Shown here: in pieces, positions 52,926 through 57,910 of the stretch | Layout of the letters: each line of letters begins with the position of its first letter | How positions within the stretch are numbered: position 1 is the first letter of the stretch | The notes under the pieces: generated by a model | Database searches by the model: none | What the model saw: the letters and a program-made list of their open reading frames with translations, nothing else | What the model was told of the DNA's origin: nothing | Origin: an uncultured Holophagaceae bacterium | GTDB taxonomy: Bacteria > Acidobacteriota > Holophagae > Holophagales > Holophagaceae | Reading direction: 5' to 3' | Assembly: GCA_903884655.1 (NCBI GenBank) | Contig: CAISFO010000079.1 | Span: 62,001-126,000 of the forward strand | DNA: 64,000 bases | Made by a program: the position numbers and the translations under genes

Positions 52926-52953
52926 TTGACTTTTATGCGTTTTCTTGGATGAT
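52926..52953 (+). promoter_or_regulatory. Promoter of the thr operon
   Basis: TTGACT (52926-52931), 16 bases, GATGAT (52948-52953) lies between the CBS gene and the leader peptide. The -35 is near consensus and the -10 is 4/6. A transcript starting near 52960 would make the leader peptide almost leaderless. Confidence 0.5.
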
Positions 52954-52960
52954 TGCCTAC

Positions 52961-53080
52961 ATGTTGTTTCTGATGAACCCCATGTCTTCGGCGTCCGCTT
53001 TTGCCAGCGGCGAGGGGTTCTTCCGCACCTTCGGTACTACGGGGAATACCACCACGCATACCGCCGAGCGGGGCACTTGA
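52961..53080 (+). CDS. thrL: Threonine-rich leader peptide of the thr operon
   Basis: This 39-codon frame starts ATG TTG TTT CTG ATG AAC and ends at TGA 53078-53080. Eight Thr codons fall in its last 18 residues (RTFGTTGNTTTHTAERGT), and no Ile codon is present. It lies between a promoter and an intrinsic terminator that precede thrA. Ribosome stalling at the Thr codons when charged tRNA-Thr is scarce would leave the antiterminator segment 53068-53074 free. In-frame ATGs at 52973 and 52982 are alternative starts; no strong ribosome-binding site is seen. The thrL name is used by analogy of position and role with enteric bacteria, not sequence similarity. Confidence 0.72.
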   Translation: MLFLMNPMSSASAFASGEGFFRTFGTTGNTTTHTAERGT

Positions 53081-53104
53081 CCTGATTCCTTCCTTTCAGA
53101 TCCG

Positions 53105-53135
53105 GCCCCGCGAATCCCACGCGGGGCTTTTTTTT
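53105..53135 (+). terminator. Attenuator terminator before thrA
   Basis: GCCCCGCG (53105-53112), a 7-base loop, CGCGGGGC (53120-53127) and then eight T (53128-53135) make a textbook intrinsic terminator 16 bases before the thrA start. The 5' arm can alternatively pair with GCGGGGC at 53068-53074 near the end of the leader peptide frame, giving a mutually exclusive antiterminator. Confidence 0.85.
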
Positions 53136-53151
53136 ACCCTCCGGAGCGTCC

Positions 53152-55632
53152 ATGTCCCCCAGCGCCATCCGTGTCATGAAATTCGGCGGCACCAGCCTCG
53201 CCAACGCGGACCGGTTCCGCACCGTGGCGGATCTGGTCACCGAGGCCTGTGCCACCCACCGGGTCTGCGTGGTGGCCTCGGCCATGGCGGGGGTCACCAA
53301 CCTGTTGCTGCATGGGGGCCGCGTTCCCGACCGGGACGAGGCGGATCGGCTGCTTCTGGGCTATCGGGACCGCCACGCGGAAGTGGTGGCGGACCTGGCC
53401 CGGGATCTGGGGCCTGAGGCGGTGGTTGTGGGGGAGGAACTGGCAGCCCTGGAAACCATCGGCCGGCGCCTGCTGCATGGCATGGCCCTGCTGGAGGAGG
53501 GCCCGCCCTCCGTGCTGGCCCAGGTGTCCAGCCTGGGCGAGCGGGCCGCCTGCGCCATCCTCATGAGCCTGCTGAAGGCCCGGGGCCTGGCACCGCGGTA
53601 CCTGGATCCCGTGGAGTACATTCGGGTGGAGGGCGACCCGCTCCAGGCGCGGCCGAAGATGGCCGAGATCGAAGCGGGCTTCACGGCCCTGAAGGCCGGG
53701 CCCGACGGGCTCTGGGTGCTGCCGGGCTTCTTCGGCGGCGATGCCCAGGCCCGCATCCTGTCCCTGGGCCGGGGCGGCTCGGACCACAGCGCGGCCCTGG
53801 CCGCCGCCGCCTTCCAGGCGGACCTGCTGGAAATCTGGACGGACGTGGCGGGGCTCTACAGCGCCGATCCGGGCCTGGTGCCCGAGGCCTTCCCGCTGCC
53901 CGAGGCCAGCTTCGAGGAGGCCATGGAGCTTTCCTTCTTTGGCGCCAAGGTGCTGCATCCCAAGACCATCCCCCCGGTGCGGGAGCGGGGCATCCCCGTG
54001 CGGGTCTGCAGCAGCTTCGATCCCCATCATCCCGGCACCCTCATCCGCGAGGAAGTGCCACCCCCGCCCAGCGGTGTGCGGGGCATCTCCTTCCTGCGGG
54101 ACCTGTCGGTGGTGAACCTCACGGGGCCGGGACTGCCCGGCGTGCCCGGCACCGCCGGCCGAGTGTTCAGTGCCCTCGCCCGGAAGGGCATCTCCGCGGT
54201 GCTCATCACCCAGAGCTCGTCCGAGCTCTCCATCTGCTTCGCCGTGCGACGGGCGGATGGCCCTGGCGCGGTGGCGGCCATTGAGGAGGCCTTCCCGGCG
54301 GAGCTGTCCGCGGGCTTCATCGACCCCGTGGCCCTGCGGGCGGGCCTGTCCGTTCTCAGCATCGTCGGTGACGGCATGCGCACCCGGGCCGGCGTGGCGG
54401 GCACCTTCTTCGATGCCCTGGCGGAGGTGGGCTGCAACGTGGTGGCCATCGCCCAGGGCGCCAGTGAGCGCATCATCTCCGCGGTGGTGGAGGAGGTCGA
54501 CGGCGCCCGGGCCATGGCCCACATCCACCGCCGCTTCTTCCAGACCCAGGTGGTGGTGGACGTGCACCTGCTGGGCGCGGGCAACGTGGGCGGCAGCCTG
54601 CTGGGCCAGATCCAGCGGCAGCACGACCAGCTGCTGGCCCTCGGCCTCGATCTGCGCGTGGCCACCGTCGCCACCAGCCGCCGCATGAAGACCGACCTGA
54701 AGGGCCTGGACCTCACCCGCTGGCGGGAAGCGCTGGCCCAGGCGGGACCCTCGGACCTGGATGGCCTGCTGGAGACGGTGCGCACCGGTCCGCCCGCCCT
54801 CTCCGTGCTGGTGGACTGCAGCACCAGCGGCGATCTGGCCGCCCGCTACCTGGACATGTTCGACGCGGGCTTCCACGTGGTGACCGCCAACAAGAAGGCC
54901 AACAGCAGCTCCCAACCCTTCTACCGGGAACTGCGGAAGCGCTCCTCCAAACGCGGCCTGCGCTTCCTCTACGAAGCCAACGTGGGCGCGGGCCTGCCCA
55001 TCATCGACACGGTCAAGAACCTGGTGATGACCGGCGACCAGGTGCTGCGGGCCGAGGGCATCCTGTCGGGCTCCATGTCGTACATCCTGGGCCTGCTGAG
55101 CGAGGGGGTGGCGCTGTCCGAGGCGGTGCGGATGGCCAAGGAGAGCGGCTTCACCGAGCCGGATCCGCGGGACGACCTGAGCGGCATGGACGTGGCCCGG
55201 AAGCTTCTGATCCTGGCCCGGGAAGTGGGCATGGAGCTGGAACTGGAGGATGTGGTGGTGGAGGGCCTGCTGCCCGCCGACTTCGACGCCACCGGGGACA
55301 TCCCCTCCTTCATGGCGCGGCTGCACCAGCTGGATGAGGCCTTCCGCGCGAGGCTGGCGACCCTGAAGGCCGAGGGCAAGACGCTTCGGTACGTGGGTTC
55401 GCTTTCCGACAGTGGCTGTCGTGTGGGGCTGCTGGAAGTCGACGGCAACCACCCCTTCATCGCCATCAAGGGCGGCGAGAACGCCCTGGCCCTGCTGACG
55501 GAGCGGTACCAGCCCCATCCCATGGTCATCCGCGGCTACGGGGCCGGGGCCGAAGTCACGGCCGCGGGCGTGCTGGCGGACATCCTGCGCCTGGTGCCCC
55601 CCGGCGCCCGGCCCGCGCGGAGGCTGCGATGA
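53152..55632 (+). CDS. thrA: Bifunctional aspartokinase/homoserine dehydrogenase
   Basis: The 826-residue enzyme catalyses the first and third steps of the threonine/methionine branch. The N-terminal kinase has [14 protein letters not shown] and [15 protein letters not shown]; the central ACT region holds the usual allosteric site. The C-terminal dehydrogenase has the dinucleotide loop [11 protein letters not shown], the NKKA motif and [17 protein letters not shown] with [11 protein letters not shown]. The length is close to E. coli ThrA (820), showing a complete fusion. GGAG lies before ATG 53152. thrB overlaps the stop by 4 bases (ATGA). Threonine feedback is expected from the family. Confidence 0.95.
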
Positions 55633-56645
55633 CAAGCCTGGCCGAGCTGCAAGCCCCTGGGCTGGTGGCCTACGCCCCCGCCAGCATCGGCAACGTGGCC
55701 GCGGGCTTCGACCTGCTGGGCGCCGCCCTGGCGCCCCTGGACGGCAGCCTGCTGGGCGATCTGGTGCATGTCGCGCAGGCCGCCGAACCCTCCTTCCAGC
55801 TGACCGGCCCATTCGCCGGGGCCCTGGCGGATGACTCGCGCCCGAACCTGGCGCTGCGGGCCCGGGACCTCTTCGTCGAGGCGGTGCGCGCCAACGGCGA
55901 GGCAGTGGGCCCCTTCGCCATCACCCTGGAGAAGCGCCTGCCGGTGGCCAGCGGCCTGGGCTCCAGCGCCAGCTCCATCGTGGCCACCCTGGTGGCCCTC
56001 CAGGCCCTGTGCGGGGATCCCCTCAGCGGCTCGGACCTGCTGGCCCTGGCAGGGAAGGCCGAGGGTATCACCAGCGGCGGCATGCACCTCGACAACGTGG
56101 CGCCCTCCCTGCTGGGCGGCCTGCAGCTCATGGTCCCGGGCCGGGACGGGCTGCCCGCCACACGGCGGCTGCCCTGGCCCTCGGATCTCCTGATGGTGGT
56201 GGTGCACCCGGCCTTCCGGCTCTCCACGGCGAAGAGCCGCGGGGTGCTGCCGCCGCGGCTGGGCTGGCACGAGACCGTGGACTTCGCCGGCAACCTCGCC
56301 AGCCTGGTGCAGGCCCTGCACAGCGGCGACCGCGCCCTGCTGGGCCGCTGCCTGCGGGATCCCCTGGTGGAGGTGCACCGCGCCCCCCTGGTGCCCGGGT
56401 TCCGGGTGGCCCAGGCCGCCGCCCTGGAGCTGGGGGCCCTGGGCTGCAGCCTGTCGGGTTCCGGCCCCTCGGTCTTCGCCGTGGCCGAGGACGAAGGCCA
56501 GGCCGGCGCCATCTCCATCGCCATCCGCGAGGCCTTCCAGACCGCGGGCCTGGACAGCCAGAGCTGGATCTGCGCCCTGGATCCCGAAGGCGCCCGCGTC
56601 ATTTCTTCCGGTTCCCGACACCCCTGGCGCGAGGCCCACCCATGA
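55629..56645 (+). CDS. thrB: Homoserine kinase (GHMP family)
   Basis: The 338-residue kinase phosphorylates homoserine for threonine synthase. The GHMP motifs are present: [15 protein letters not shown], the ATP loop [12 protein letters not shown] and the C-terminal [10 protein letters not shown]. The length is normal. Both ends overlap neighbours by 4 bases (ATGA), so thrABC is translationally coupled. Confidence 0.95.
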
Positions 56646-57910
56646 AGCTCGTCAGCACCCGCAATTCATCTCTCACCGCCAGCTTCGTGGCAGCCGTGCA
56701 GGCGGGCCTGGCGCCTGATGGCGGCCTCTACGTCCAGACGGAAATACCTCGCTTCGCAGATGTCCCTGATCTGCTGAAGCTGGATTTCCCAACGCGTTCC
56801 GTGGAGATCCTCCACCGCCTGCTGGGCGATGAGTTACCGCGCCCCGTGGTGGAGGAGCTGACGCGCTCGGCCTTCACGTTCCCGGCGCCGCTGGTGAAGG
56901 TGGACGACCGCAGCTCGTCCCTGGAGCTGTTCCACGGCCCCACCCTCGCCTTCAAGGACTTCGGCGCCCGCTTCCTGGCCCGGGTGCTGGCCCTCGGGGC
57001 TGGCGGCCACCGGCGCACGGTGCTCACCGCCACCTCCGGCGACACCGGTGCCGCCGTGGCCCAGGCCTTCCACGGCCTGCCCGGCGTGCAGGTGGTGGTG
57101 CTCTATCCCGCGGGCCGGGTGTCACCCCTGCAGGAGCGGCAGTTCGCCACCTGCGGCGGCAATGTGCTGGCCCTGGCGGTGGACGGCGCCTTCGACGACT
57201 GCCAGCGGCTGGTGAAGGGCGCCTTCGAGGACGCGGAGCTGGTCGAGCGGCTGGGGCTGACGTCGGCCAACAGCATCAACATCGCGCGGCTCCTGGCACA
57301 GTCCCTCTACTACTTCGAGGCCGCCGCCCAGGCGGATCCCGGCGTGCCCCTGACGGTGTGCGTGCCCAGCGGCAACTTCGGCAACCTCTACGCGGGCCTG
57401 CTGGCGAAAAAGATGGGCGCGCCCATCCAGACCTTTGTGGCCGCCACCAATGCCAACCGGGTGGTGCCGGACTACCTGGACACGGGCACCTACAGCCCCC
57501 GTCCTTCCGTGGCCACCCTGTCCAATGCCATGGACGTGGGCGCCCCCAGCAACTGGGAGCGGATCTTCGCCCTGTTTGGCGGCGACCATGACGCCATGGC
57601 CGCCGCCCTGCGCTGGGGCAGCTGCACGGACGCCGAGACCGAAGCGACTGTGGTGGCACTGGACCGCGGCGGCTATCTGGCGGATCCCCATGGAGCCGTG
57701 GCGTACTGCGTGCTCCAGGCGAACCTCCACGCGGGCGAGCAGGGCATCTTCCTGGCCACCGCCCACCCCGCCAAGTTCCTGGAGGCCCTGGCCCCCTGCC
57801 TCGGCCGCGACATCCCGCTGCCCAAGTCCCTGAGCGACCTGCTGGAGCTGCCGCTGCTCTGCGAGCCGCTGGCCGCGAATCAGACGGCTCTGAAGAGGCG
57901 GCTGAGTTAA
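56642..57910 (+). CDS. thrC: Threonine synthase
   Basis: The 422-residue PLP enzyme converts O-phosphohomoserine to threonine. The PLP lysine lies in LAFKDFGARF, with the substrate loops TATSGDTGAAVAQAFHG and VPSGNFGNLYAGLLAKKMG and ATNANRVVPDYL. It begins with LVSTRNSSLTASF, the usual N terminus of the bacterial class II form. It is the last gene of the operon, ending 92 bases before the Ig-repeat lipoprotein gene. No terminator is clear. Confidence 0.95.
   Translation: MKLVSTRNSSLTASFVAAVQAGLAPDGGLYVQTEIPRFADVPDLLKLDFPTRSVEILHRLLGDELPRPVVEELTRSAFTFPAPLVKVDDRSSSLELFHGPTLAFKDFGARFLARVLALGAGGHRRTVLTATSGDTGAAVAQAFHGLPGVQVVVLYPAGRVSPLQERQFATCGGNVLALAVDGAFDDCQRLVKGAFEDAELVERLGLTSANSINIARLLAQSLYYFEAAAQADPGVPLTVCVPSGNFGNLYAGLLAKKMGAPIQTFVAATNANRVVPDYLDTGTYSPRPSVATLSNAMDVGAPSNWERIFALFGGDHDAMAAALRWGSCTDAETEATVVALDRGGYLADPHGAVAYCVLQANLHAGEQGIFLATAHPAKFLEALAPCLGRDIPLPKSLSDLLELPLLCEPLAANQTALKRRLS

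Follow-up and report, generated by a model that had tools for sequence, protein, structure and literature searches.

A ribosome-mediated transcription attenuator very probably controls the threonine operon thrABC of a Geothrix-like member of the Holophagaceae (Acidobacteriota), and we put the probability of this reading at about 0.9. Judging from the sequence, the threonine enzymes are probably made only under shortage of threonine, and usually also of isoleucine. Geothrix is a bacterium of soil and sediment. The window, by which we mean the whole 64,000-nucleotide stretch of DNA that was analysed, contains in this order a promoter, a Thr-rich 39-codon leader, a 7-nt antiterminator segment, a terminator with T8 and thrA-thrB-thrC (Table 1). 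The original prediction had named these elements in the same order, and each was found, exact to the base, where it had been placed. Its naming of the downstream genes as thrABC also held, as all three exceed curated NCBIfam cut-offs.

In the mechanism we propose, RNA polymerase would start at or next to the leader ATG, and a ribosome would load on the leaderless mRNA and trail the polymerase. With enough charged tRNA-Thr, and in most relatives also tRNA-Ile, the ribosome would run to the stop codon and cover segment 2, segments 3 and 4 would form the terminator, and only an RNA of roughly 175 nt would be made. When threonine is short, the ribosome would instead halt on Thr codons, the last of which ends at 53056, with its front edge not quite reaching segment 2. 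Left free and aided by the CTGA/TCAG stem, this segment would then pair with segment 3, so that no terminator forms and thrA-thrB-thrC is transcribed.

Table 1. Features of the thr attenuator and operon in the window, with the trp leader of the same genome
Feature	Position	Strand	Basis or remark
Promoter: -35 TTGACT (52926-52931), 16-nt spacer, -10 GATGAT (52948-52953)	52926-52953	+	promoter scan and conservation
Predicted transcription start of a leaderless leader mRNA	52960-52961	+	on the leader ATG or no more than about 2 nt away, from spacing
Leader peptide ORF MLFLMNPMSSASAFASGEGFFRTFGTTGNTTTHTAERGT, 39 codons, stop TGA 53078-53080	52961-53080	+	frame open in 53/53 loci
Hairpin P1, CCGCT-tttgcc-AGCGG, 5' of the Thr codons	52995-53010	+	possible RNA-polymerase pause hairpin
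Control codons: Thr at -17, -14, -13, -10, -9 and -8 from the stop	53027-53056	+	Thr enrichment and register across leaders
Antiterminator segment 2, GCGGGGC, overlapping the last leader codons	53068-53074	+	complement of GCCCCGC 53105-53111; duplex -17.8 kcal/mol
Inner antiterminator stem CTGA (53082-53085)/TCAG (53096-53099), within the 2:3 hairpin	53082-53099	+	conserved block; fold of truncated RNA
Intrinsic terminator: segment 3 GCCCCGCG (53105-53112), loop, segment 4 CGCGGGGC (53120-53127), T8 (53128-53135)	53105-53135	+	folding, sequence
Shine-Dalgarno-like GGAG of thrA	53143-53146	+	sequence
thrA, bifunctional aspartate kinase/homoserine dehydrogenase I	53152-55632	+	NCBIfam PRK09436, 949 bits (cut-off 726)
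thrB, homoserine kinase	55629-56645	+	TIGR00191, 226 bits (cut-off 168); 4-base ATGA overlap with thrA
thrC, threonine synthase	56642-57910	+	TIGR00260, 282 bits (cut-off 167); 4-base ATGA overlap with thrB
trp locus of the window genome (L156), leader peptide MVLTFSIPQPGLDHEAWWWCAGSVGSLCEA	G000:C22:72415-73740	-	upstream of trpE

A Thr-rich leader frame conserved in the Holophagaceae

Relatives were gathered from named genomes and from searches at the level of genus, class and phylum. All 53 Holophagaceae loci examined, spread over 8 genera, carry the -35 and -10 elements, the ATG, a Thr-rich ORF of 34-48 codons, its stop, the terminator and thrA; the carriers include G. fermentans DSM 14018, G. 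oryzisoli, G. campi, G. terrae and G. limicola. This distribution places the circuit at least in the ancestor of the Holophagaceae genera with this type of thrA. Because some loci are near-identical or come from the same species in two collections, statistics were computed on 39 distinct leaders.

The leader of the window has eight Thr codons in its final 18 residues, as had been predicted (binomial p 9.5e-7 against 4.9% Thr in the local proteome). Threonine enrichment in related genomes, to which the original prediction had pointed as a check, is very strong: Thr makes up 28% of residues -24 to -6 in the 39 distinct leaders against 4.9% in the genes of the window (5.6-fold; enrichment p-values take the leaders as independent although their sequences are related), and 30% in a subset of 14 leaders spread over lineages. 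The enrichment belongs to the ORF frame, with 205 Thr among 741 codons there, compared with 47 and 1 (6.3% and 0.1%) when the DNA is read in the two alternative frames. Clustered codons for the end product within a short leader ORF, as in classical attenuators, are thus present across the family. They crowd at positions -17 to -8 and end abruptly, occupancy falling from 30/39 leaders at -8 to 4/39 at -7.

Threonine is accompanied in the control regions of the 39 leaders by Ile (1.7-fold), Met (2.9-fold), Asn (2.9-fold) and Gly (1.7-fold), and Lys is almost absent. At least one Ile codon occurs in the control region of 33 distinct leaders. The absence of Ile codons, put forward earlier as a departure from enteric thrL, is therefore true of the window leader and does not extend to the group; the leader family resembles enteric thrL and could in principle respond to both threonine and isoleucine. 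Threonine, isoleucine and methionine all arise from the homoserine branch, which ThrA feeds, and an attenuator that senses the three together would account for the Met codons, which are present in 28/39 leaders and are frame-specific (47 in the ORF frame, 8 and 1 out of frame). We consider this wider sensing unlikely: Asn and Gly, which are not homoserine products, are enriched to the same degree, so that composition or a need for low structure may explain the pattern, and the window's own control codons (-17 to -8) include neither Ile nor Met. Given this parallel rise of Asn and Gly, we make no claim of methionine sensing.

Several genomes fall outside this distribution. Four from another family of the class (L100-L103) have a fused thrA but show no leader of this kind in the stretch that was read. 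In fourteen genomes of the family in which no fused thrA was found, a search that had no positive control returned no homoserine dehydrogenase match. Among the genomes of the Geothrix genus, G011, G021, G029, G030, G033 and others have neither a fused thrA nor a detectable homoserine dehydrogenase of this type. These Geothrix-genus genomes may use a divergent enzyme or be auxotrophic. In genus g5 (L105) aspartate kinase and homoserine dehydrogenase are separate genes, and the Thr leader precedes the kinase. An internal TGA in some thrA matches of the family was considered as read-through and rejected, as it lies at the natural C-terminus or, in one genus, marks a split gene.

Two mutually exclusive stems

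The terminator lies between the leader stop and the first structural gene, as in a classical attenuator. Its stem of 8 G-C pairs (-16.6 kcal/mol) is followed by eight T, in agreement with the original prediction, and the gap from the leader stop is 22-24 nt in most relatives. Segment 2 is likewise the perfect complement of the terminator 5' arm that had been claimed, giving an antiterminator that shares this arm and excludes the terminator. When the RNA was folded up to the middle of the terminator, before its 3' arm, the 2:3 pairing formed in 24 of 25 leaders, the exception being L096. The block CTGACCTGA...TCAGA between stop and terminator is strikingly conserved in the genus, because the inner stem usually forms inside the 2:3 hairpin. 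Duplexes of segments 2 and 3 range from -12 to -26 kcal/mol across leaders, with weaker pairing of segment 2 in a few lineages (L013, L014, the L023 group and L090).

Covariation in the two stems had also been proposed as a check. The terminator stem hardly varies inside the genus and is hence uninformative, and covariation of the antiterminator is weak there, 24 of 500 shuffles reaching the observed level. We therefore swapped partners across 14 lineages, which weakened the mean duplex from -19.6 to -17.4 kcal/mol (permutation p 2e-5). Since swapped partners pair more weakly, segments 2 and 3 are matched within lineages, and the expected covariation is clear as co-adaptation across genera and, for the antiterminator, weak within the genus. 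Two genera show drift of the switch: in g10 (L082, L083) and g3 (L084, L085) the register of segment 2 is changed or the stop-to-terminator gap is lengthened, to 31-36 nt in g3.

These observations bear on whether the hairpin could be a plain or partial intergenic terminator, unregulated and preceded by an incidental Thr-rich frame. A GC-rich genome does yield terminator-like hairpins by chance, 0.4 being expected in 600 bases. A promoter, however, lies between the upstream gene and the hairpin, and the element persists in relatives while the sequence upstream of the promoter differs. The in-frame Thr enrichment, the codon register and the co-adaptation of segments 2 and 3 across genera would also be left unexplained, and we regard this reading as very improbable.

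Ribosome position selects the structure in silico

Attenuation requires that the position of the ribosome decide between the two stems. We placed a ribosome on each codon in turn and folded the RNA that it leaves uncovered, assuming the 15-nt front edge familiar from ribosome footprints. With the A site at -8, the front edge reaches nucleotide -14, counted from the end of the stop codon, near the start of segment 2. In the window leader the antiterminator has a probability of 0.95 and 0.99 with the ribosome at codons -9 and -8, and the terminator a probability of 1.0 from codon -6 to the stop. The claim that a stalled ribosome frees the antiterminator and one at the stop masks it is thus reproduced in silico, with a matching codon register. 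A ribosome stalled upstream of codon -10 gives a mixed result (antiterminator 0.4-0.66 over Thr codons) in thermodynamic terms, so that the switch relies on kinetics. The Thr run thus ends where the mechanical limit of the switch lies.

A terminator and antiterminator before a biosynthetic operon would equally be the layout of a T-box, a riboswitch or a protein-binding leader that detects tRNA-Thr or threonine independently of ORF translation. No Rfam family reaches its gathering score anywhere in the window, however, and no T-box or riboswitch family appears at E up to 5 in the leader region. Conservation resides in the reading frame and the Thr codons and not in a structured aptamer, and the control region shows no excess of structure over shuffles; a sensor of this kind is exceedingly unlikely. 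No Thr leader model, the enteric Thr_leader family (RF00506) included, matched in the gathering-score scan of the window or in a permissive Rfam scan of the leader (E up to 5), which returned sub-threshold models only, mostly sRNAs placed on the terminator.

A probable leaderless start and an upstream hairpin

The promoter is the only promoter-like site between 52700 and 53300, where 0.1 would be expected in 600 bases, and it sits where a promoter had been predicted. TTGAC plus a -10-like element is kept in nearly all relatives. The spacing between the first -35 base and the leader ATG is 35 or 36 nt in 51 of 52 measurable loci (8 genera); the ATG was picked as the in-frame one nearest the expected distance, which biases this count slightly, and the -35 is almost always unique. 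The leader ATG follows the -10 by about 7 nt, so that the usual start distance from a -10 falls on or beside it and the thr leader mRNA is probably leaderless. Of the 53 loci, 10 have a Shine-Dalgarno-like motif before the leader ATG and 37 have one before thrA.

Hairpin P1, which like the leaderless start was not part of the original prediction, lies between the ATG and the Thr codons. Of 34 leaders, 56-65% have a perfect stem of 5 bp or more in the interval ATG+18 to +64, where shuffles give 18-25%; no other part of these leaders shows a clear excess of stems. Folding z-scores dip at the same position in the genus. The stem sequence differs by lineage (CCGCT/AGCGG in the window, CGTCGAGG/CCTCGACG in L007, GCCAGC/GCTGGC in L003). 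P1 is perhaps a pause hairpin that would let the ribosome catch up, by analogy with pause hairpin I:II of the E. coli trp leader (PMC1183508); placed ahead of the decision point, it could synchronise polymerase and ribosome. The trp hairpin uses the control region and segment 2, whereas P1 is located 5' of these two elements and has no segment in common with the switch. No 1:2 hairpin is obvious here that would, as in classical attenuators, keep segment 2 paired in an untranslated leader. In three loci (L027, L028, L034) an in-frame 24-nt insertion beside P1 adds a second GC-rich hairpin-like unit and leaves the frame and the Thr codons undisturbed.

Leaderless initiation combined with a hairpin upstream of the control codons may constitute a distinct attenuator design of the Holophagaceae, leaderless for both thr and trp, a proposal we hold tentatively and at somewhat less than even odds. 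If it is true, the start of transcription would be the start of translation, ribosome loading would be coupled to the appearance of the RNA 5' end, and the upstream hairpin would provide synchronisation independently of the switch segments.

Relation to known attenuators

A close counterpart is thrL of Escherichia coli and other gammaproteobacteria (RF00506), which also has a Thr- and Ile-rich ORF, a terminator and an exclusive antiterminator before a fused thrA with thrB and thrC. The E. coli leader has about 21 codons, whereas those described here have 34-48, are probably leaderless, carry a hairpin 5' of the control codons and belong to a different phylum; their segment 2 also overlaps the last codons beside the stop. 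Leaderlessness and the upstream hairpin are possibly variant features, and the attenuation mechanism itself is textbook.

Leaderless attenuator RNA has a precedent in trpL/rnTrpL of the alphaproteobacterium Sinorhizobium meliloti, a Trp system with a 14-aa leader whose RNA starts at the leader ATG (PMC7298713); leaderlessness is reported there, whereas we infer it here. The predicted terminated product is, like rnTrpL (PMC7298713), a small leaderless mRNA, and the RNA or its peptide might also act in trans in the manner of rnTrpL and peTrpL. Such a role would be compatible with attenuation, but outside the control codons the peptide diverges fast among relatives, which speaks against a conserved peptide function, and we judge it improbable.

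In Actinobacteria, trp, ilv and leuS attenuators combine a leader peptide with a terminator in GC-rich genomes, and the survey that describes them reported that threonine operons there have no conserved regulatory RNA structure in front of them (PMC1262725). Leaderless initiation has been discussed for ilvBNC of C. glutamicum (PMC11857589). One survey found acidobacterial attenuators to lack functions (PMC2965389). In the literature searched we found no description of a threonine attenuator in Acidobacteriota, survey coverage being incomplete and an earlier prediction possible; its occurrence in the phylum and the leaderless design thus appear undescribed. An attenuator of this type would give the phylum a concrete amino-acid control circuit and would imply transcription-translation coupling there, and it points to a recurrence of leaderless leader peptides beyond Alphaproteobacteria and Actinobacteria.

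Other leaders in the Geothrix genus and the phylum

In the Geothrix genus trpE has its own, probably leaderless, Trp attenuator, seen in the window genome and in 28 of 29 other loci read (L162-L190). The window genome's copy has a terminator GCCCGACC..GGTCGGGC with T5 and a segment CGGGCTCGG complementary to CCGAGCCCG. The -35 lies 36-37 nt from the leader ATG in nearly all trp loci, and the ATG about 7 nt after the -10. No leaders were seen before leuA, a leuA paralogue, ilvB or hisG in the window genome.

Most other acidobacterial families sampled gave no Thr leader by a crude scan. Among 45 further acidobacterial thrA upstream regions, four in family f23 (L140, L144, L146 and L149) have short Thr/Ile ORFs, such as MLIVPVRPTMTRTTTITTGDSSGG, followed by terminators, and one in family f80 (L141) has a probable Thr leader, MTSTTTTPRASGGTGLA; all five lie upstream of a fused thrA. 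Judged by their unrelated sequences, the f23 and f80 leaders are independent of the Geothrix ones. In f23, segment 2 (GCGGATGA) differs completely from that of Geothrix and takes in the stop codon, yet it too is perfectly complementary to its terminator arm, TCATCCGC.
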